DNA of 64,000 nucleotides, from positions 7,077,001-7,141,000 of the forward strand of contig NC_056753.1 of assembly GCF_018687715.1 (NCBI RefSeq), read 5' to 3'. The position numbers were made by a program, and so were the translations under genes. The notes beneath the pieces were generated by a model. It ran no database searches, was not told the origin of the DNA, and worked only from the letters and a program-made list of their open reading frames with translations. Below are positions 16,607 through 59,759 of the stretch, in pieces. How positions within the stretch are numbered: position 1 is the stretch's first letter; each line of letters begins with the position of its first letter. The stretch is from Carya illinoinensis. Its lineage: Eukaryota > Streptophyta > Magnoliopsida > Fagales > Juglandaceae.

Positions 16607-16756
16607 AGACCCCCTTCTGCTGATTATACTCACAACCTCGAGCTTAATTCTTTGTTTCCCAAGCTAGCTAAAAGATCATGTAGTAGTAACACACACGCAT
16701 GATCATATATAATGTTTTATGGTTTATGAGAGTAGTAGTGCATGGGGGTCGAATGA

Positions 16757-16932
16757 ATGGGGCTCTCTTTACTCCATATTCTGAAAGGAGGTAGAGGGGA
16801 AGCCACGGCTGCTAGTTCATGAGTACCCCCGGCCTGCGCATTAGTATCGATGCTGCACAGTCCAAGGGTTTGCATGAGCTTGGAGACGTGGTTACCTTTA
16901 TCTTTTTGGTATTGGAGTGAAGGGAGCTCCAT
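16757..16932 (+). ncRNA. MIR159: MIR159-type microRNA precursor, intact
   Basis: The 3' arm at 16911-16931 carries a 21-nt miR159 signature beginning ATTGGAGTGAAGGG and ending AGCTCCA. This variant, as I recall, matches soybean miR159 b/c-type sequences. The 5' arm from 16757 (ATGGGGCTCTCTTTACTCCA) pairs with it over 20 of 22 positions, counting three G:U pairs. Above it, GGGAAGCCACGGCTGCTAG (about 16798-16816) pairs with the strand containing CATGAGCTTGGAGACGTGG, giving the long stem typical of MIR159/MIR319 precursors. miR159 guides cleavage of GAMYB-type MYB mRNAs. The mature sequence GGATTG/GGAGTG-GAAGGGAGCTC separates it from miR319 (TTGGACTGAAGGGAGCTCCC). The transcript probably continues into the CT repeat at 16943. 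Confidence 0.88.
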
Positions 16933-16939
16933 ATTTATT

Positions 16940-16942
<3 letters not shown>

Positions 16943-17012
<70 letters not shown>
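16943..17012. repeat. CT and TA microsatellite
   Basis: About 25 CT units (16943-16992) run directly into a TA tract (about 16992-17012), starting 11 bp after the pre-miRNA base, so it is probably part of the primary transcript. Confidence 0.9.
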
Positions 17013-20897: not shown

Positions 20898-23800
20898 CTA
20901 AGGGACCCCAACAGTTTTTACATTAATTAAGTTCAAACAGTGTTTGAACTTTGCTAATGGCAAGGACTTAGTCATCATATCTAAGGGATTTTCCTCTGTT
21001 GGAATTTTCTCCACTCCAACTTCTCTAGACTCAATTACATCCCTTACAAAGTGAAGCCTAACATCTATATGCTTAGACCTTTCATGAAATACTTGGTTTT
21101 TAGCCAAGTGTATAGAGCTTTGATTATCACAGTGTACAGTTATATTTCCTTTGAAAATGCCCAATTCATGTGATATCCCATTCAACCATATAGCTTCCTT
21201 TATAGCTTCTGTCAAAGCTATATACTCAGCCTCTGTTGTAGACAGGGCTACAACAGATTGCAAATTAGACTTCCAACTAATAGCCCCCCCAAAAGCAGTA
21301 AAAATATATCCTGTTAGAGACTTTCTAGTATCCACACTACCAGCATAATCAGCATCTACAAACCCTTCCAATTCACATCCTTCTTTAACATTATTTCCAT
21401 ATTTCAAGCCCAAAACAGTAGTTCCTGAAATGTATCTTAAAAGCCACTTAATAGCCTGCCAGTGTGCCTTACCAGGGTTAATCATAAACCTACTAACAAC
21501 ACTGACAGCATAGGTAAGATCAGGTCTTGTACAGACCATTGCATACATCACACTTCCTACCATACTAGCATAAGGTATTTGGTGCATAAACTCCATTTCA
21601 GATTCAGTTTGAGGGGCTTGAGTAATGGACAACTTGAAATGTTGACCTAGAGGTGTGCTTACAGGTTTAACTTGGTTCATACCAAATCTTTTAAGAATTT
21701 TAGATAGATAATTTCTTTGAGATAGAAACAGACATCTCTCTGGTCTATTTCTTATAATATCCATTCCTAAAATTCTACTAGCTGGTCCTAGTTCCTTCAT
21801 ATCAAACTCAGATTTTAACATGCACTTAGACTGTTTAATCAAATTTGGATCTTTACATGCTACCAACATATCATCTACATACAGCAACAAATATATTAAT
21901 ATTCCATTAACATCCTTATAATAAACACAGCTGTCATAGCAGCTTCTTTTAAAATCATTTTCAAGCATGTAAGTATCAAATCTCTTATACCATTGTCTAG
22001 GTGATTGTTTTAAGCCATATAGAGATTTTTTAAGCAAATATACCTGATCAGAGTTAATTTCTTTTGTAAACCCCTCAGGGGGTTGCATGTAAATTACCTC
22101 TTCTAATTCTCCATGTAAAAAAGCAGTTTTTACATCCAATTGTTCTAAGTGCAAATCATTATATGCTATAAAGGATAACAGCAATCTAATGGAGCTATGT
22201 TTAACCACAGGAGAGAATATCTCATTAAAATCTATTCCCTCTCTTTGAGTGAAACCTTTAGCCACTAATCTTGCCTTAAACCTAGTCCCTTCTACCCCTG
22301 GTATGCCTTCTTTCCTTTTAAAGATCCACTTGGATCCCACCAACTTTACCCCAGCAGGCTTTGTAACTAATTCCCAAGTTTTATTTTTATTTAAAGACTC
22401 CATTTCTTCTTGCATAGCAAGTATCCACTTAGTGGCATCTTGGCTTGCAATGGCCTCTTTATAAGTCCTTGGTTCTTGATAAATGACCTCATCAGCAATA
22501 GTCAAAGCAAAAGCAGTAAGCTCTGCATGACCATACCTAATGGGAGGTTTTATAGTCCTTTTCTTCCTGTCTCTTACTAACATGTAAGAGTCAGGACCTG
22601 GTTTATCTAAGTCCTCTGAAATTGGGTCTTCAAAGTTACTGACTTCCCCAGCATTACTACCAGTTGAGGTGTTTCCTCTCTCCACCTCAACCTGTACATT
22701 TCCCTCTGTATTTCCAGGTATTTGTTCTATTTCTGTATTCTGGACCCGAGCCATTTGGGATTCATTAAAGATCACATCCCTGCTAATTATACATTTATTT
22801 CTACTAGGTTTGTCTATCCATAGCTTATACCCCTTCACTCCCTCAGGGTATCCCACAAAAATGCATTTTAGTGCCCTAGGGTCTAACTTATCAGTTTTTG
22901 AATGTGCATAGGCTGTACATCCAAAAATTCTAAGGTAATCATACCTGGGAGGTTTCCCAGTCCACATTTCTTGTGGTGTTTTAAAGTCTATGGCAGAAGA
23001 TGGACACCTATTAATTAAATGGACAGCTGTAGCAGCAGCTTCAGCCCAGAATGTTTTAGGTAACCCAGTATTTGACAACATGCATCTTACCCTCTCTAGA
23101 ATGGTCCTATTCATCCTTTCAGCTAGACCATTCTGTTGAGGTGTTTCCCTAACAGTTTTGTGTCTTAGAATCCCTTCCTTTTGACAGAAATTATTAAACT
23201 CTGTTGACAGAAACTCTAACCCATTGTCAGTTCTTAATATTTTTAATTTTCTGTCTACCTGTTTTTCAACTAAGGATTTCCATTCCTTAAACTTTTCAAA
23301 AGTGTCACTCTTATGTTTAAGTATGTAAATCCACACCTTTCTAGAGTAATCATCAATGATGGAGAGAAAATAATTCCCTCCACCATGAGAACTTACTCTA
23401 GAAGGTCCCCAAAGGTCAGCATGTACATAATCTAGAGTCTGAGTAGTCAGATGAGTTGCCCTTTTAAAACTAACCCTTTTAGCCTTTCCATAGACACAGT
23501 CTTCACAGAAAGGTAAATTGTCCAGGTTTGCCTCTTTCAGCAGACCCTGTTTCTTAAGTTCTAAAAGCCCTCTTTGACTAACATGCCCTAGCCTCCTGTG
23601 CCATAGCACAGATTTTTTCTCAACTTCATTATGTACAGGGGATGCTTCCCCTACAGTTGTTTTCCCAACTAAGGTGTAAAGGCCATTCTTTATAACCCAT
23701 TTCATAATTGTAAGTGAACCTTTAGTAACTCTAAGGACCCCTGATTCAGACTTAAAAGAATAACCTGAGTTATCAAGCATACCAAGAGAAATTAAATTTC

Positions 23801-24140
23801 TCTTTAGGTCAGGTATAAATCTGACCTCCCTCAAAAGTCTCTCCATCCCATCATGTAGTTTTAGTCTTACACACCCAATACCCATGATTTTACAGGATTT
23901 ATTATTCCCTAGAATTACATGCCCACCATCCAATTCAGAAAAGTTTTCAAACCAGTCCCTGTTAGGACACATGTGAAAAGAACAACCTGAATCTAATATC
24001 CACTCACCTTCATGGCCTATATCAGATATATTTAGTACTTCAGCACTATCATACCCATCTAACACCACTGCTGCATCCCCTTCATCTTTGTTCTTGTATC
24101 CTATCTTTGTTTTTCTCTCAGGACAATCTCTCTTGAAATG
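20898..24140 (-). CDS. Copia POL: PR, INT, RT, RNase H
   Basis: In frame with GAG after the TGA; about 1,080 codons with no other stop. Numbering from the GAG start (1,319 codons in all): second half of the zinc knuckle (HFKRDC), aspartic protease WILDSGCSFHMC (~288), GAG-pre-integrase LWHRRLGH (~425), integrase core with DLWGP, IDDYSR and the catalytic glutamate in QQNGLAERMNRT (~480-580), reverse transcriptase with KTAFLHGELEE and LYVDDML (~992), RNase H with ADYAGSVDTRKSLTGY and LSTTEAEY (~1170-1225). All catalytic motifs look unbroken, so the element appears only one mutation away from an open frame. Length is close to tobacco Tnt1-type polyproteins. Confidence 0.92.
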   Translation of the reverse strand, partial: HFKRDCPERKTKIGYKNKDEGDAAVVLDGYDSAEVLNISDIGHEGEWILDSGCSFHMCPNRDWFENFSELDGGHVILGNNKSCKIMGIGCVRLKLHDGMERLLREVRFIPDLKRNLISLGMLDNSGYSFKSESGVLRVTKGSLTIMKWVIKNGLYTLVGKTTVGEASPVHNEVEKKSVLWHRRLGHVSQRGLLELKKQGLLKEANLDNLPFCEDCVYGKAKRVSFKRATHLTTQTLDYVHADLWGPSRVSSHGGGNYFLSIIDDYSRKVWIYILKHKSDTFEKFKEWKSLVEKQVDRKLKILRTDNGLEFLSTEFNNFCQKEGILRHKTVRETPQQNGLAERMNRTILERVRCMLSNTGLPKTFWAEAAATAVHLINRCPSSAIDFKTPQEMWTGKPPRYDYLRIFGCTAYAHSKTDKLDPRALKCIFVGYPEGVKGYKLWIDKPSRNKCIISRDVIFNESQMARVQNTEIEQIPGNTEGNVQVEVERGNTSTGSNAGEVSNFEDPISEDLDKPGPDSYMLVRDRKKRTIKPPIRYGHAELTAFALTIADEVIYQEPRTYKEAIASQDATKWILAMQEEMESLNKNKTWELVTKPAGVKLVGSKWIFKRKEGIPGVEGTRFKARLVAKGFTQREGIDFNEIFSPVVKHSSIRLLLSFIAYNDLHLEQLDVKTAFLHGELEEVIYMQPPEGFTKEINSDQVYLLKKSLYGLKQSPRQWYKRFDTYMLENDFKRSCYDSCVYYKDVNGILIYLLLYVDDMLVACKDPNLIKQSKCMLKSEFDMKELGPASRILGMDIIRNRPERCLFLSQRNYLSKILKRFGMNQVKPVSTPLGQHFKLSITQAPQTESEMEFMHQIPYASMVGSVMYAMVCTRPDLTYAVSVVSRFMINPGKAHWQAIKWLLRYISGTTVLGLKYGNNVKEGCELEGFVDADYAGSVDTRKSLTGYIFTAFGGAISWKSNLQSVVALSTTEAEYIALTEAIKEAIWLNGISHELGIFKGNITVHCDNQSSIHLAKNQVFHERSKHIDVRLHFVRDVIESREVGVEKIPTEENPLDMMTKSLPLAKFKHCLNLINVKTVGVP

Positions 24141-24857
24141 TCATTCTTTGTGACACAGAAAACATTTTAACTGTTTTCCTTTAGACTTAGACCTATATTT
24201 CTTATTTTCTGTTTTGCCTTTCTTGCCTCTCTTTTCTGGTCTTCCCCTAACAGACAAACCCTCACCATGTTCTTGTTTGGTATTTTCTTGATTTTGTAAT
24301 TCTCTAGCATGAAGCACAGATTGCACTTCATCTAGAGATATTGCATCTCTACCATACATCATGGTCTCCTTAAAGTTCTGGTATGAGGAGTCCAAAGAAC
24401 TCAATAAGAGGATTGCTTGATCCTCATCCTCCACCTTAATATCTATATTAGCTAGGTCTAATATAATCTTATTAAAAGTATCCAGATGTTCTCCTATTGA
24501 AGTTCCAGAAGACATCTTAAGAGTATATAACCTAGTCTTTTTATATAGTCTGTTTGCCAGGGATTTAGTCATATAAAGATGTTCAAGCTTTAACCAGATA
24601 CCAGCAGCAGTTTCTTCACTAGCTACTTCCTTTAAGACCTTGTCTCCTAGGGAAAGGATCAGAGCACTATGGGCCTTTTGGAGAATGTCCCTTTGGACCT
24701 TCTCCTTCCCTTCCTCTTTCGAGGAGGAGCCCATTTTATCACTGGTGAGGGCATCCTGCAAGCCCTGTTGGACTAGCAGAGCCCTCATCTTAATCCTCCA
24801 CAAACCAAAATCATTTTCACCCGTGAACTTCTCAACATCAAATTTCGTGGTCCCCAT
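24141..24857 (-). CDS. Copia GAG domain, up to an in-frame TGA
   Basis: Codes 238 residues of the nucleocapsid/capsid polyprotein start: N-terminal KFDVEKFTGENDFGLWRIKM, then the UBN2/Retrotran_gag region (WLKLEHLYMTKSLANRL, LLSSLDSSYQNF), a basic linker (KRGKKGKTENKKYRSKSKGK) and the first half of a CCHC zinc knuckle, CFLC. A TGA at 24141-24143 stops translation inside the knuckle at the position normally held by glycine. The rest of the knuckle and pol continue downstream in the same frame. Either a recent nonsense mutation or, less likely, a read-through codon. Confidence 0.88.
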   Translation of the reverse strand: MGTTKFDVEKFTGENDFGLWRIKMRALLVQQGLQDALTSDKMGSSSKEEGKEKVQRDILQKAHSALILSLGDKVLKEVASEETAAGIWLKLEHLYMTKSLANRLYKKTRLYTLKMSSGTSIGEHLDTFNKIILDLANIDIKVEDEDQAILLLSSLDSSYQNFKETMMYGRDAISLDEVQSVLHARELQNQENTKQEHGEGLSVRGRPEKRGKKGKTENKKYRSKSKGKQLKCFLCHKE

Positions 24858-24868
24858 AGAACCTAAGC

Positions 24869-24881
24869 TCTTGATACCACT
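24869..24881 (-). other. Copia primer-binding site
   Basis: On the minus strand, directly after the 5' LTR, the sequence reads TGGTATCAAGAGC, complementary to the 3' end of initiator tRNA-Met with one added A relative to the usual TGGTATCAGAGC. Confidence 0.75.
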
Positions 24882-25678
24882 TGTTATGTTTCAAATCAAG
24901 TATACAATAATATCCAATAATCCCCAATACAGAAATCCAAATACAAGAATTCCTCTTTCAGAGATCCTCCAACAGTATGACAGTATATAGATATGTACAC
25001 AGATTCAAAACAATATACATATGTACACAGATTCAAAACAGAACATAACTCAGGAATCTCAAAATGATAAGATTATGATCAACACCGAAACTTAGTTGAG
25101 ATATTCACAAGATATGATAATGATAACAGGATAACAAGAATAAGCTATGAATCAGTAAAGGAACAAGAAATATGCACAGAAAATAGAAAGAAAGGGGAAA
25201 GAAGAAGATACAAACAGAGATTACGTGGTTCGGCCCTAATGGCCTACATCCACGACAGGAACAGCCTCAGAGATCACTTTATTGATGAATCTTCAAGGCC
25301 AAAATGCCATAGTACAAGATCGAACTACAATGGAGTCAAGAAAAGCCACAAAAACATGGCATTTCACTTTCCCTCACAAACCCTAGTTCTTTCTTTCTCT
25401 CGGACTCACCCAATCTCTCAGACGGCTACAGTACAAATGAAATCACTCTCTCTCTTAACCCTAGTTCGATAACCACATATATATACATGAAGTAGAGATT
25501 GATCGGACGGCTTTCCTTCATCCCAAGCTTTAAGTGAGACGGCACCGTTTAAACCACTGCAGGTTCTTATTGCTTCATTTATCATATAAGTGCTGTTGCT
25601 TATCACGTGAGTTAACAATCTGCATTGAGATGAGTTAGTAACAAATTGAAGATAAAAGTAATTGACACATTTATCACA
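24882..25678 (-). repeat. 5' LTR of Copia element
   Basis: 797 bp; TG...CA ends on the minus strand. A TATATATATGTGG sequence (reverse strand, about 25480-25493) is a candidate TATA box for element transcription. Same length as the 3' LTR. Confidence 0.92.

Positions 25679-27017: not shown

Positions 27018-27019
<2 letters not shown>

Positions 27020-27077
<58 letters not shown>
27020..27077. repeat. AT microsatellite
   Basis: About 28 uninterrupted AT units between the TATA box and the 5' arm of the split microRNA hairpin. Confidence 0.95.
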
Positions 27078-27079
<2 letters not shown>

Positions 27080-27305
27080 ATTAGCATTGTTTTGGCTAAA
27101 TGATCAAAACTTGTGTGATGCATTCACCAGCCAAATAATTCAGTGGGAGCTCCCTTTGATTCAAAAGCAGGAGGAGAGTGGGGGTTTAGCCGACTGCTGG
27201 TTCATGGATACCTCTGGGCTGCGCTGATTAATCTTAAATTAATTAATAGGGCTTCCTTGCTTTTGCACACCTTAAGGGTTTGCATGACTCAGGAGATCAG
27301 ACGTC

Positions 27306-27669
27306 TGTTGTGCCTCTAACCTGTCCGAAAATCACACAAAACAATTTTAAAGTGGTTCAGCAAATTGCCTATGTCCACTGGAGCCTCTTTTATAGAATTT
27401 GTACAAAATTTACAAAAATCTACAAATTCTCATCTCTCCCTCACGTCCCTCTTTCTCTGTTTTTCTTTCTCCCCCAACGCTGCTGCCGCGCCCCACTCTC
27501 TGCACAATTAAGCTCTCCTATTTATAGGAGAGCAAACCTCTTGGGTACAGCAGATTTCTGCATAATGTTAGGGGGAGGTGCCTAATAAAACAAAGCACCA
27601 AACGGTGCCTAATAAACCAAGAGAGAAAACGATGCATGTGCAGCCCTTCATACTTGGGTTGATTCAACA
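27306..27669 (-). repeat. 3' LTR of the element in the MIR159 hairpin
   Basis: Contains a palindrome GCTCTCCTAT-TT-ATAGGAGAGC (27522-27543) whose minus strand includes TATAAATAGG, the probable TATA box of the LTR. Carries a 27-bp tandem duplication absent from the other LTR. Confidence 0.9.
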
Positions 27670-29354
27670 ATCACCCCCTCCACCCAAGTATGCCATATTA
27701 GGCTGCTTGCAAACTGATTCATTTTTTAAATGAATGCACATCTTTATTTGACATGAGAGATTTCTGCTATCGAATACACTCCAATGCATCTGTAGGTACG
27801 TCTTCAAATGGATGTCCAAATGCTTCTCCAAATGCATCTTCAAATGCATTAGCATCGTTTACATCCACGGAGCTTGTAAGGGATTTTCTTCAGAGGAGAT
27901 TTACAAGTGCTTCACTGCACAATCTCAACTCTCTAGAATTCTTCTTTTACTCGAGTCCATGAGTCCGCACTCATGTACACCTTGAGCAAACCGAGCTTCA
28001 TTCGAGCCACAACCGAGCGAACAATCTACCTAGTACCTTTACAACTTTTAAACCAGGCTCCATAATCCTACAATCACACCAATCTCCTACTTGGAGACTG
28101 ATTCTCAACATGCTAGCCTCTATCTCTAGCATGATCCCTTATCATCTATACAATTTTACAGCTCATGTCTTCATCTTAGAAGACTAACAAAAGTGATGCA
28201 TAACTTTAGTTCTTCACGTACAGTGCCCTTAATCAATACATACATACAGGGCAACACATCTCCTACTGCACTAGGAATCAATGGTCTCACACGGACCTTA
28301 ACACATATCAGAGAACCTGTTGTTGAGGTCTCCATCTCTGACTTGACTGACTCATCATCCTGCTGCTGTCTTCAGTCGCATGTGCCCATCTTGTGTGCAG
28401 TCTCCGACTTGCATAATCTTCCTTCTTGCAAGATTTTTCTTCATACCGTAGTTCACTACCTTCATTCAGCAGGATATAGTTTAAGGTAGTAACCACCATG
28501 AAAGTCTGATCGTCTTGACAGCCATGTGATCATCAATTTTAGGTGTAGATATCCATGGAACATTTGACGTTTTGTTCCCATCTCTCACACCTTTGCTTCA
28601 TGTCGTGGTCTAGGGAGATTTCTTCAGACTTAGATGAGGAAAAATAAAACTGACTTCTTTTTACTTGCTCATCTAATTCACACGACTATTACCACAAGCC
28701 AAGACCAATGAATCATTCGTGACCTTCCATATCTTTTTAAGAAAACACTACCGAATGACTGCTGTCTTCAAGCTGTCTTTAACAGCATTGTGCACTGCAA
28801 GAAATGCAACGCCATGTATTTCTTCAGTCACCATATTCACAGCATCATTCACAATTTTCTCCTGATTTTAGCAGTCTCTTGTGGCCTGTCTTGCCACAAT
28901 TTATAGCGAGTCATCTGTTGTCCAGATCTTGACTTGCCTCTGTCCTTACTATCAATATTCAAGACCAACAACTCGAGATCTTGCCAGAATCTCTTCTGCG
29001 CACCTCCTCATCCAGGATAAGATTTCTTACATTGAGAAACTTCAACTTGACTTCTTTGCAGAATTACTCATAGCCATTCTCATGACCTACCAACCTTTTG
29101 ACCACAACGTCAAATGCTATTGGGCAACAATAGTACCTTCTGCATTTTCTGAAGTTGAACAATTTCTTCATCAGCACTTTGCTATTTGCAACTGACTTTT
29201 CAAAGAAAACCACAATGAGATCTGTTGCGGTTCTCCTCTTAAAATCATTATGCTCCATGAGTTGTCTTACTGCCAAAATCTGCTGATATAACAAGTTAAT
29301 CAGCATCGTCCAATGATCAGAAGTTTGCTCCTCAAACTTCACAATCCCAACTGG

Positions 29355-30125
29355 CTTAAATCAAGCCCCAAAACCAATGAGTCTAGCCCGACTCCAACTG
29401 GTTGCGATCAAGTCCAAAACACATGAGTCCATCATGACTCCAACCGGCTGTGATCAAGCCCAAAACAAATTAAGTCCATCATGACTCCGACTAGCTACGA
29501 TCAAGCCCACAATTGATCTGCAACTATGAATGGTTCAGATCGAAAGTACCGATGGCGAATCTCAACATTCCCACCTTACCGATGAGTCCGGAATGATCCA
29601 AATAGTTTGTCAGCACTATTTGATCATCGCAATGGAACTCCAACTGGTGTGGATCTAGCCCAAAATGATCTGCAACACGTGGACGGTTCAGATCGAATGT
29701 ACGGTTCCTACCGTACGGATGAGTCCGGAATGATCCAAATAGTTTGACATCACCATTTGATCATTGCAATTAGACTCCAACTGGCGTAGATCTAGCCCAA
29801 AATGATTTGCAACACATCGACAGTTCAGATAGACAGTATCGATGGCGAATCTCAACATTCTCACCATACCGATGAGTCCGGAATGATCCAAATAGTTGGA
29901 AAGCACTATTTGATCGTTGAAAGCGGACTCCGAATGGCTTAGATCTAGCCCAATATGATCTACAACTGATGGACGATTCAAATCAAAAGTACCAATGATG
30001 AATCTCAACATTCCAACCATATGGATGAGTCCAGAATGATCCAAATAGTTAGAAACCACTATTTGATCGTTGAAATCGGACTTCGAATGGTTTAGATCTA
30101 GCCCAAAATCGATCTGCAACTTTTG
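29355..30125 (-). repeat. Tandem repeats inside the non-autonomous element
   Basis: From 29520 to 30125 there are about four ~153-bp units, each with GATGAGTCCGGAATGATCCAAATAGTT, GATCTAGCCCAAAATGATCTGCAAC and GGACGGTTCAGATC-like blocks. Upstream (29355-29512) about three ~60-bp units repeat CCATGACTCCAACTGG / GATCAAGCCCAAAAC. Because 153 is a multiple of three, one minus-strand frame stays open over three units with a repeated YLDHSGLI block. I judge this an effect of periodicity and not evidence of a protein. Confidence 0.75.
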
Positions 30126-30465
30126 GACGGTTCAGATCAGCCTTCCGCTACAGTAGCGCGTGGGAGCGCGTGCCTAAGCGTGGGGGCGCGTGGGAGAGTG
30201 TATTCCATGCGTATTCTTCCTCCAGATGCGAGTGGTGGCGCGTGGGAGCGTGTTTCCCACTCGTCTTCTTCCTCTGACGCGATTTAGGCGCGTCTGTGCA
30301 CTCTCCAACTTCCAGGGGCGCGTACGGGCTCCTCCGGCATCCGTTTTTGATGCCGTTTGCGGCAACGGATTCATCTTGATGCGAAGAATATCACTGTATG
30401 GTCAAAATTTGATTTCGATCAACTTGATTTTTTTGGACAGTTCGAACCAGTGTTCTGATACCAGT

Positions 30466-30802
30466 TGTTGTGCCTCTAACCTGTCCGAAAATCACACAAA
30501 ACAATTTTAAAGTGGTTCAGCAAATTGCCTACTTCCACTGGAGCCTCTTTTATAGAATTTGTACAAGATTTACAAAAATCTACAAATTCTCATCTCTCCC
30601 TCACGTCCCTCTTTCTCTGTTTTTCTTTCTCCCCCAACGCTGCTGCCGCGCCCCACTCTCTGCACAATTAAGCTCTCCTATTTATAGGAGAGCAGACCTC
30701 TTGGGTGCAGCAAATTTCTGCATAATGTTAGGGGGAGGTGCCTAATAAACCAAGAGAGAAAACGGTGCATGTGCAGCCCTTCATACTTGAGTTGATTCAA
30801 CA
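30466..30802 (-). repeat. 5' LTR of the element in the MIR159 hairpin
   Basis: 337 bp. The same TATA-containing palindrome lies at 30672-30693. Followed on the minus strand by the tRNA-Met type primer-binding site (30454-30465). Confidence 0.9.
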
Positions 30803-30859
30803 ACGTCTTCCCCACCTCTTTTCCTTTCTTGGATTGAAGGGAGCTCCAACGCTAGCTCT

Positions 30860-32150
30860 CTATCTCTTTATCTCTCCCTCATTGATTTTTTGCTGCAATA
30901 ACCGTATTAATTAATATGCATACGTACGTTGATATATATACTCATAATGATCATGTTTATATAGGCCGGCCGTACGTTTTGGATTGGTTTTTCAAAAGAT
31001 GAAGCGATCAAAATAAAGGTGCAAGCTTGCAGCCAGGTAGAAGAAACCTAAAACATCAACCCCAAAATGCAGCAAGTTTTCTGCTGGAGTACTGGTTACC
31101 TAAGAACCAGATCAGCGTTCCACACCATGCGCCCATGCAGCAGCTTAAGATATCAAATGATCCTATTTTGTATTTTCTGCTAAGATTTTGTTAGAAGTTT
31201 AATTTTGGACTCCTGTTTAATTTTCTTCTTTTGGCCTACCTATGCTCTGTGTATCTGTTTGAATAAACTCCAGTTATATGCATCCTGGGATTTTTTAATG
31301 CAGAGTTTCAGTACCAATGCCAGCCGCTGAAATGGTGCACGCGCGCAGACTTCCCACGCCGTCTCAAACTCTCACATCTCATGTCTGCATGCCTAACGTG
31401 ACGACGTTCATTATATATTGATCTATGGAAGTGATCGGAGGAGGCCGGGAAAACGTTTCACACAGCTCGGCGGTGCGTCCAGAAAGGGTGAAATCGCCGG
31501 CCTCGATTGCCCACACGCTGTATTGGGAGGATCAGGATCTTCCCCATGACTACATACGAATTACGTACGGTCGTGATCAGAAAAGTTGGAATGCAAATTC
31601 GTCGGAACATGATGTATTAATTTATGAATCGTTGACGTCCATTTGTTTCCATCCACTCGACCCTTCTATGGTCATGAATATATAACTAAGTATTTTCTTT
31701 ACGACAATAGGTTTGGTTTAGCACTATTTTGACATTTTGTGTGTGTGTGTATATATATATATTAAATATTTCATGATCTTCCTCTTAAAGCATGAAGCAA
31801 AGGATCAAGTCAAATGATATTGAGTTGTTAGATTATATGTTGATGGTGTTGAAATATCTTGAATTGGCATATCAGCGCAAAGATGTCAATAAACCATGAT
31901 CTTTTTTTAATTGGGGCATTAAGGTGACCTTCTTCCCTTTAATGCTAAGAGAATATGTGTTTTTATGCCTATCTTGAATTACATTTCGATCATACTACCA
32001 CGACTTGTCTAGCAATAAATGGCAAGCATCCATGGATACCATGTCACACCTCGTGGTTGGAATACTTCTGACAAATCGAAAAGGAGACCAATGCAAACAC
32101 TAGTGGTGAACAATGACCTCACTGTCCTTCTTTAGTCATGACAGTTTGTA
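30860..32150. other. Downstream of split MIR159; no gene
   Basis: Includes a short GT/TA microsatellite at about 31739-31762. A small open frame at 31425-31685 (86 codons, plus strand) has no family I recognise and no splice or homology support. The part from about 31790 may already belong to the degraded gypsy element to the right. Confidence 0.35.
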
Positions 32151-58865: not shown

Positions 58866-59624
58866 TCATCTGAGCTTCTCCTTCCCGCTACTCTTCTTGG
58901 CCGCTTCTTTGACTTTATCAATGTAACCCTCAATTGGCGGAGTCAAAGTAGCCATGAATCGACTCGCGGGGAAAGGAGTCAGGTCCGGTACCAAAGCGGC
59001 GGTTCTCAAATCCTCCGGTAGGGCCTCGATTGCCTCCTTCTTCAACCTCAAAAGGTTGGACTCGGCGGCCTGCCTGGTCCGGTGGCGCCTCATAAGAACC
59101 CTACTGTACTCCTTGGCCAGTCGCCGCCCATCCTCCACAGTGAGTTCATACTGGGGAAGCTTGTCGGCATCAACCAGTCCCAGCGATATCAGATCCAACC
59201 CAGGAGTCCCAATAATAGTCGGCGTCTCCGGGATACCCAACTTTTGCTTGTAGTCCTTCTTCTTCATCAAATCCAGCTCTCGCTGCCGGTCCTTGTTGAC
59301 AAGCCCCAACTTCTCTCGCTTGGCTTCGCGTGCTCTTTCTCTCGGGTTCAGGTATCGGACGGGAGTGGGAGCATTGAGGCAGAGGTGTTCGAGCCTGTCT
59401 TCTCGTTCGAACGGCTTTTTGGATCCTCCGGCGGTTATAGATTCGGTAGCGCCCTTTTTGGTATTGGTTCTGAATCGCTTTAAGGTTTGGCCGGCTTTGA
59501 TTTTGCCTTTGCCCTTAGCGGTACCACTGACTGAGCATCGTTGGAGGAATTGGTGGTTCCAAGAGGAGGAGGAGGACACCATGGACAACCCTAGAGGCTT
59601 TAGTTTTGCAATTCGGGACAGCAT
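58866..59624 (-). CDS. Probable mitochondrial ribosomal protein mL40
   Basis: Single open frame, 252 residues, no intron needed. The N-terminus (MLSRIAKLKPLGLSMVSSSS) is rich in Ser, Lys and Arg without acidic residues, fitting a mitochondrial presequence. The middle holds RTNTKKGATES and a run of basic helices (RERAREAKREKLGLVNKDRQ). The C-terminal half has RRHRTRQAAESNLLRLKKEA, EALPEDLRTAALVPDLTPFP and ends with TLTPPIEGYIDKVKEAAKKS. The TPPIEGY close resembles the TPPIPGY region of mL40 (MRPL40/Mrpl28 family, large mitoribosomal subunit); the assignment is by motif and general layout, so only moderately sure. It has also been annotated in plants as an uncharacterised or copper-binding-like protein. 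The plus-strand frames over the same bases are shadows. Confidence 0.8.
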   Translation of the reverse strand: MLSRIAKLKPLGLSMVSSSSSWNHQFLQRCSVSGTAKGKGKIKAGQTLKRFRTNTKKGATESITAGGSKKPFEREDRLEHLCLNAPTPVRYLNPRERAREAKREKLGLVNKDRQRELDLMKKKDYKQKLGIPETPTIIGTPGLDLISLGLVDADKLPQYELTVEDGRRLAKEYSRVLMRRHRTRQAAESNLLRLKKEAIEALPEDLRTAALVPDLTPFPASRFMATLTPPIEGYIDKVKEAAKKSSGKEKLR

Positions 59625-59759
59625 TTTCTCGGCAACACCACCACTGACCCAGCCCTGTGATTATCGGCCTCAGACTCTCAGTAGAGTAGAAGAAGAGATC
59701 TACGACGACGACGGGAGGAATGCCACTGAACAGAGAGGAAAGGGTTTTGTGACTATGGC

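Follow-up and report, generated by a model that had tools for sequence, protein, structure and literature searches.

What becomes of a microRNA gene when a retrotransposon comes to lie within its hairpin? The question is raised by a locus in C2:7077001-7141000 of Carya illinoinensis, a stretch of 64,000 nucleotides referred to here as the window, which was analyzed against the whole genome (674 Mb in 17 contigs). The window was confirmed to contain a MIR159/319-type hairpin interrupted by an LTR element. As the original prediction had it, the 3' strand of the hairpin is broken 20 nt short of the mature sequence, and this point separates the second conserved duplex from the spacer stem. The parts of the split hairpin and the intact neighboring copy, the presence of which in the same window had also been predicted, are as follows.

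27146..27166, plus strand: miRNA* (5') arm of the split hairpin, from its pairing in the fold and a minus-strand match to the mature pattern with 3 mismatches
27169..27184, plus strand: 5' strand of the spacer stem, which pairs with 30809-30825 in the fold
27194..27212, plus strand: 5' strand of the second conserved duplex (miR159.2-like), from the Rfam alignment and an alignment of 13 hairpins
27276..27297, plus strand: 3' strand of the same duplex, GGGTTTGCATGACTCAGGAGAT, from the same two alignments
30808..30827, plus strand: 3' strand of the 20-nt spacer, from the break to the mature sequence, from the sequence and the fold
30828..30848, plus strand: mature miR159-type sequence CTTGGATTGAAGGGAGCTCCA, from the sequence and a search with the mature pattern
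16748..16943, plus strand: intact neighboring MIR159 hairpin (Rfam RF00638, 109.8 bits)

When the flanks of the element are joined with one ACGTC kept, they fold to -90.8 kcal/mol, with 19 consecutive pairs between 27146-27164 and 30829-30847 and a further pair between 27166 and 30827. Two control sets of 300 joins each were made: window segments lying 3.5 kb from one another reached at best -76.5 kcal/mol, and random right halves attached to the true left half at best -75.5 kcal/mol. No join in either set is as stable as the split hairpin, so that the structure present before the insertion can still be read, as had been proposed. The pairing of 20 of 22 positions, given in the original prediction, was reproduced for 30827-30848 with the stretch from 27145, and nowhere else in the window pairs as well; because two unrelated sites come close, at 19 of 22 with G-U pairs counted, the number alone is weak evidence. 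The pattern TTGGANTGAAGGGAGCTCC, with up to three mismatches, matches the window three times, at the two mature arms and the minus-strand star arm, as compared with 0.06 matches expected, and none of 100 shuffles gave three. Chance pairing of unrelated sequence was considered and is ruled out by the control joins together with the Rfam matches. In cmscan, the left half matches MIR159 at 27172-27317 (43.7 bits, E 2.4e-7), the last 12 nt of this match being within the LTR, and the right half gives a weak match at 30723-30860 (26.8 bits, E 0.005), most of whose length is LTR; the genome-wide search with the MIR159 model listed the left half again at 43.7 bits and did not list the right half.

The split copy resembles other members of RF00638 in its mature core, its two stacked duplexes, and its long stem: the 3' arm carries the miR159/319-type mature sequence, its star is paired, and the second conserved duplex is present in the upper stem. 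It differs from them in that the hairpin is interrupted in the DNA by 3.5 kb, comprising the 3,497-bp insert and the duplicated 5 bp, and neither half alone reaches the gathering score of 74 bits. Because the hairpin is not continuous, we file it as a disrupted rather than a working member of MIR159. The family relation of the arms, put forward in the original prediction, is borne out by the Rfam matches, the joined fold, the pairing of the mature sequence, and the alignment of 13 hairpins, in which the second duplex of the split copy is common to the paralogues. Its mature arm is paired at 19 of 21 positions; the range in the other 12 hairpins is 15-21, and most of them do not exceed 19. Relative to the intact neighbor, 8 of the 21 mature positions differ in the type of pair, and nt 7 has changed on both strands and is still paired. 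In the tree of the 13 hairpins the split copy has the longest end branch (0.66) and no resolved placement. A shared 20-nt spacing after GACGTG in the intact copy and GACGTC in the split copy, offered earlier as a further likeness, is literally present in both, but MAFFT puts the two words in different columns and the spacing is consequently weak support. Just upstream of the split hairpin, a (TA)n run at 27019-27076 gives weak matches to mir-1277 and mir-297, below their cut-offs; these animal-microRNA matches are low-complexity artefacts.

The two arms had been described as separated by a complete LTR element of 3,497 bp with ACGTC duplicated at the break, and the following parts were found.

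27306..30802, minus strand: a complete LTR retrotransposon of 3,497 bp, non-coding and in antisense orientation relative to the MIR gene, from its anatomy and its relatives
27306..27669, minus strand: LTR of 364 bp (the 3' LTR in the orientation of the element), from repeat detection
30466..30802, minus strand: LTR of 337 bp (the 5' LTR in the orientation of the element), with a 27-nt gap relative to the other LTR
27301..27305: first copy of the target-site duplication ACGTC, from the sequence
30803..30807: second copy of the target-site duplication ACGTC, from the sequence
27670..27682, minus strand: stretch like a polypurine tract, adjoining the 3' LTR, identified by eye
30452..30463, minus strand: TGGTATCAGAAC, like a primer-binding site, 2 nt inside the 5' LTR, identified by eye
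29533..30145, minus strand: an internal repeat (family D1) present in four copies at intervals of 137-153 bp

The element begins with TGTTG and ends with CAACA, and the paired LTRs, the TG...CA ends, and the target duplication identify it as an LTR retrotransposon. The stretches like a primer-binding site and a polypurine tract were read by eye, and the former resembles the site for the plant initiator-Met tRNA. The interior is 2,796 bp long. No gag-pol reading frame was found and the longest stop-free stretch in the whole element, 147 codons, has no Pfam match, so that the element is non-autonomous. By this anatomy it is LARD/TRIM-like; it shares with non-autonomous LTR elements its LTRs, the motifs like a primer-binding site and a polypurine tract, a 5-bp target duplication, multiple copies, and the lack of a long frame, but at about 3.5 kb it lies between the sizes usual for TRIM and LARD. 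These observations support a single clean retrotransposon insertion into the MIR159 hairpin. An assembly error was also considered, and the perfect target duplication and the related copies of the element argue against it.

The element belongs to a multi-copy family. At least 41 genome matches to the 364-bp LTR were found, with 40 of 1,311 first-look candidates scored, and two of the matches are the element's own. In nine copies with paired LTRs that were examined, the interior is common to all (2,469-2,794 of 2,796 nt covered), the longest stop-free stretches are 122-230 codons, with none above 230, and the LTR divergences are 0.014-0.081. A perfect 5-bp repeat is found at the listed ends of four of the nine (L046, L047, L048, and L053), and the other five have none as printed, the listed ends being trimmed or shifted in several. 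One relative, L053 (C9:38123646-38130346), is nearly twice as long at 6.7 kb, with the same LTRs, the target duplication GTAAT, and no stop-free stretch above 145 codons. A Copia-type element is located between the two MIR159 copies of the window (20901-24890, minus strand); its gag (24144-24890) and pol (20901-24140) are in the same frame with one in-frame stop codon between them.

In the alignment of the two LTRs of the inserted element, 8 of 337 positions are different (7 transitions and 1 transversion), corresponding to a K2P divergence of 0.024. The 27-nt gap is probably a deletion in the LTR at 30466-30802, as the full 364 bp is matched by several other copies. At substitution rates of 6.5e-9 and 1.3e-8 per site per year, the age of the insertion would be 1.9 Myr (0.8-3.6) and 0.9 Myr (0.4-1.8), respectively. 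The rate of 1.60e-9 per site per year that a published study gives for C. illinoinensis (PMC9899254) yields 7.6 Myr (3.2-14.6). Depending on the rate chosen, the insertion may thus be about 1-8 million years old. Neutral evolution over this time would give about 2.7 changes in the hairpin, so that its present intactness says little about the period since insertion, and about one in the 84 nt of the surviving stem, which gives no sign of selection.

The insert leaves the miRNA/miRNA* duplex and the overlying spacer stem continuous and severs them from the upper stem and loop. In the minimum-energy fold of the unspliced 3,733-nt stretch, 39 basal pairs are kept (27144-27184 with 30809-30851). 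For a 3,781-nt stretch, pair probabilities were predicted at equilibrium, without proteins or order of transcription: 0.83-1.0 for the 19 pairs of the duplex and, of ten spacer pairs tested, 0.96-1.0 for nine and 0.5 for the other. The possibility of premature polyadenylation was also considered; the four AATAAA in 27100-30870 are close to the window mean of 1.28 per kb and provide no evidence for it.

According to three papers, MIR159/319 precursors are cut stepwise from loop to base (PMC6195573, PMC9893293, PMC9201385). The last of these, citing Bologna 2009, describes the upper stem with the loop as critical for miR319. It also reports that an Arabidopsis construct, mir159a.1-solo, consisting of the basal duplex, part of the stem, and a terminal loop, did not rescue the mutant and that a construct without the miR159a.2 duplex did, and it suggests that processing depends on the length of the stem and not on its sequence and that the flank of the lower stem matters for the first cut (PMC9201385). 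The basal duplex and part of the stem in mir159a.1-solo are what stays continuous in the split copy, but there the loop was short and normal, whereas here about 3.6 kb stands above the stem. As the nearest published analogue of the remaining stem, this construct favors loss of function; in view of the rescue without the miR159a.2 duplex and the emphasis on stem length, partial function or residual processing may persist (PMC9201385).

The reading that we prefer, with a probability of roughly 0.7, is that a non-autonomous LTR retrotransposon inserted into a MIR159 copy, that its mature miRNA was lost or became poorly made, and that the loss was tolerated. The insertion, antisense in the 3' strand of the hairpin, is observed. 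It put about 3.6 kb in place of the continuous upper stem, and the loop end, at which cutting of MIR159/319 precursors starts in the published accounts, is disconnected. From this replacement we infer that production of the mature miRNA has ceased or that the remaining basal stem yields it poorly and imprecisely, and the split copy is likely to be knocked out; the loss would be tolerated through the other MIR159-type hairpins of the genome, the genes and sites of which are described below.

The intact basal stem, which is predicted to pair across the insert, counts against this reading and is the basis of an alternative, in which the 39-pair stem closes over the insert, with entry of DCL1 at the junction on the element side, about one step above the miRNA, and the miRNA is still made by a weakened or re-timed gene. 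The predicted persistence of the 39 pairs, with high probabilities in the duplex and in 9 of 10 spacer pairs, is in its favor, as is the bidirectional processing of precursors with branched loops described for pri-miR166c (PMC9893293). Equilibrium folding, however, leaves out the order of transcription and proteins, and LTR elements are in general methylated and silenced, as the insert is likely to be. The failure of the Arabidopsis construct with only the basal duplex, even with its normal loop, also argues against this alternative (PMC9201385). We consider a weakened or re-timed gene of this kind improbable, and it is slightly more doubtful still that a miRNA is now produced from a stem closed, as modeled, across a 3.6-kb retrotransposon "loop."

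A duplicate that was already decaying and unexpressed when the element arrived, so that the insertion was without effect, is unlikely, if a little less so than a stem closed across the element. The long branch (0.66, the longest end branch of the 13 hairpins) suggests that the split copy may have decayed before the insertion, and no counterpart was found by blastn beyond short matches in 150 kb of the homeologous block on C1. This is opposed by the very stable joined fold, by the retained second duplex, and by a mature arm in which 19 of 21 positions are paired and the nt 7 pair has changed on both sides. Removal of the element by splicing, with the hairpin forming afterward, is highly improbable, even though introns are common in plant pri-miRNAs (PMC3701235). 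By a plain consensus scan, the sole GTRAG between 27184 and 28200 (at 27876) and the YAG closest upstream of the mature arm (at 30774) are both within the element, so that a simple splice junction would not rebuild the stem exactly.

Loss of the split copy as a knock-out, which remains our preferred reading, would probably be buffered by paralogues, and the plant may be little affected. The genome-wide search with the MIR159 model gave at least 25 matches with 34 candidates scored, which correspond, when strands are grouped, to at least 14 places: 12 above the cut-off, C7 below it, and the split copy. By mature sequence the set above the cut-off includes at least five MIR159-type hairpins (C2 intact, C1a, C1b, C15, and C16) and at least seven of MIR319 type. 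One of the five is in the window and two are in the homeologous block on C1. These two, C1a (minus strand, L009) and C1b (plus strand, L010), have very similar hairpins in opposite orientation, 9.5 kb apart (C1:11932633-11942214). They score 77.2 and 86.6 bits, respectively, with the Rfam MIR159 model, cluster with the intact window copy among the 13 hairpins (support 93/90, not starred), and are flanked by the C1 copies of two window genes, which are presumably At5g41620-like and POB1-like. One window protein, 91% identical to a protein of Juglans regia and 65% identical to one of C. illinoinensis, has a copy on C1 with 65% identity; in the C1 stretch no match was found to the window protein at 58866-59660 or, at E 1e-8, to the element. 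The pairing of C1a at 15 of 21 mature positions counts against buffering. In walnut, one study describes MIR159/319 as the largest miRNA family, with nine members, and attributes about 70% of reads to miR159a (PMC6099546); no sequence in the available parts of that study or of a pecan study (PMC11430883) could be tied to the split copy.

Sites of miR159 type are located within long reading frames at five loci (L014-L016, L019, and L020). A Myb domain upstream of the site was confirmed by Pfam for L040, L041, L043, and L044, and L042 has MYB-like text by reading only. Against three GAMYB-type sites, the split mature sequence has mismatches at nt 1 and 7, canonical miR159 has mismatches at nt 1 and 7 plus one G-U pair, the C1a/C1b mature sequence has one mismatch plus a G-U pair, and that of the intact neighbor has no mismatch. 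Because at least five other MIR159-type hairpins suit the same MYB targets, as judged from their sequences, loss of the split copy would probably be tolerated. Private targets of the split miRNA were considered and rejected, since the three GAMYB-type sites match it no worse than they match canonical miR159.

The mobile element at MIR156 in the maize Corngrass1 allele is reportedly a comparable case. A mobile element alters a plant MIR gene there as well, but here the element is within the hairpin itself and is known from the DNA alone. The insertion is a known type of event in an informative position, a datable natural insertion within a hairpin from a plant microRNA family that is among the most conserved; a limited literature search, which does not establish absence from print, found no paper on it. 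Whether a precursor processed from loop to base survives loss of its loop end has previously been asked of engineered constructs (PMC9201385). If the preferred reading is correct, the case shows copy number permitting the loss of a conserved MIR gene; if the stem does close across the insert, MIR159 processing can begin at an arbitrary junction and an LTR element can act as a terminal loop. The mature core TTGGATTGAAGGGAGCTCC of the split copy has one exact place in the genome (1 of 30 matches listed), and as it is unique among those matches, sequencing reads of small RNAs from this species could show whether the gene works.

The split and canonical mature sequences are also almost fully complementary (0-1 mismatch plus G-U pairs) to sites within LINE-like reverse-transcriptase text (ELPSIQE) at L017, L018, and L021-L024, a better fit than that to GAMYB (2 mismatches). 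The pattern GAGCTYCCTTCAATCCAA has 22 exact genome matches (control, 0), three of which are MIR genes; three of the 19 others were read (L017, L023, and L024). In the five loci searched with Pfam, RVT_1 was found at L023 only, and L017, L021, L022, and L024 gave no Pfam match. The LINE-like complementarity is possibly a coincidence of similar peptides (ELPSIQ and ELPSLQ) multiplied by copy number.
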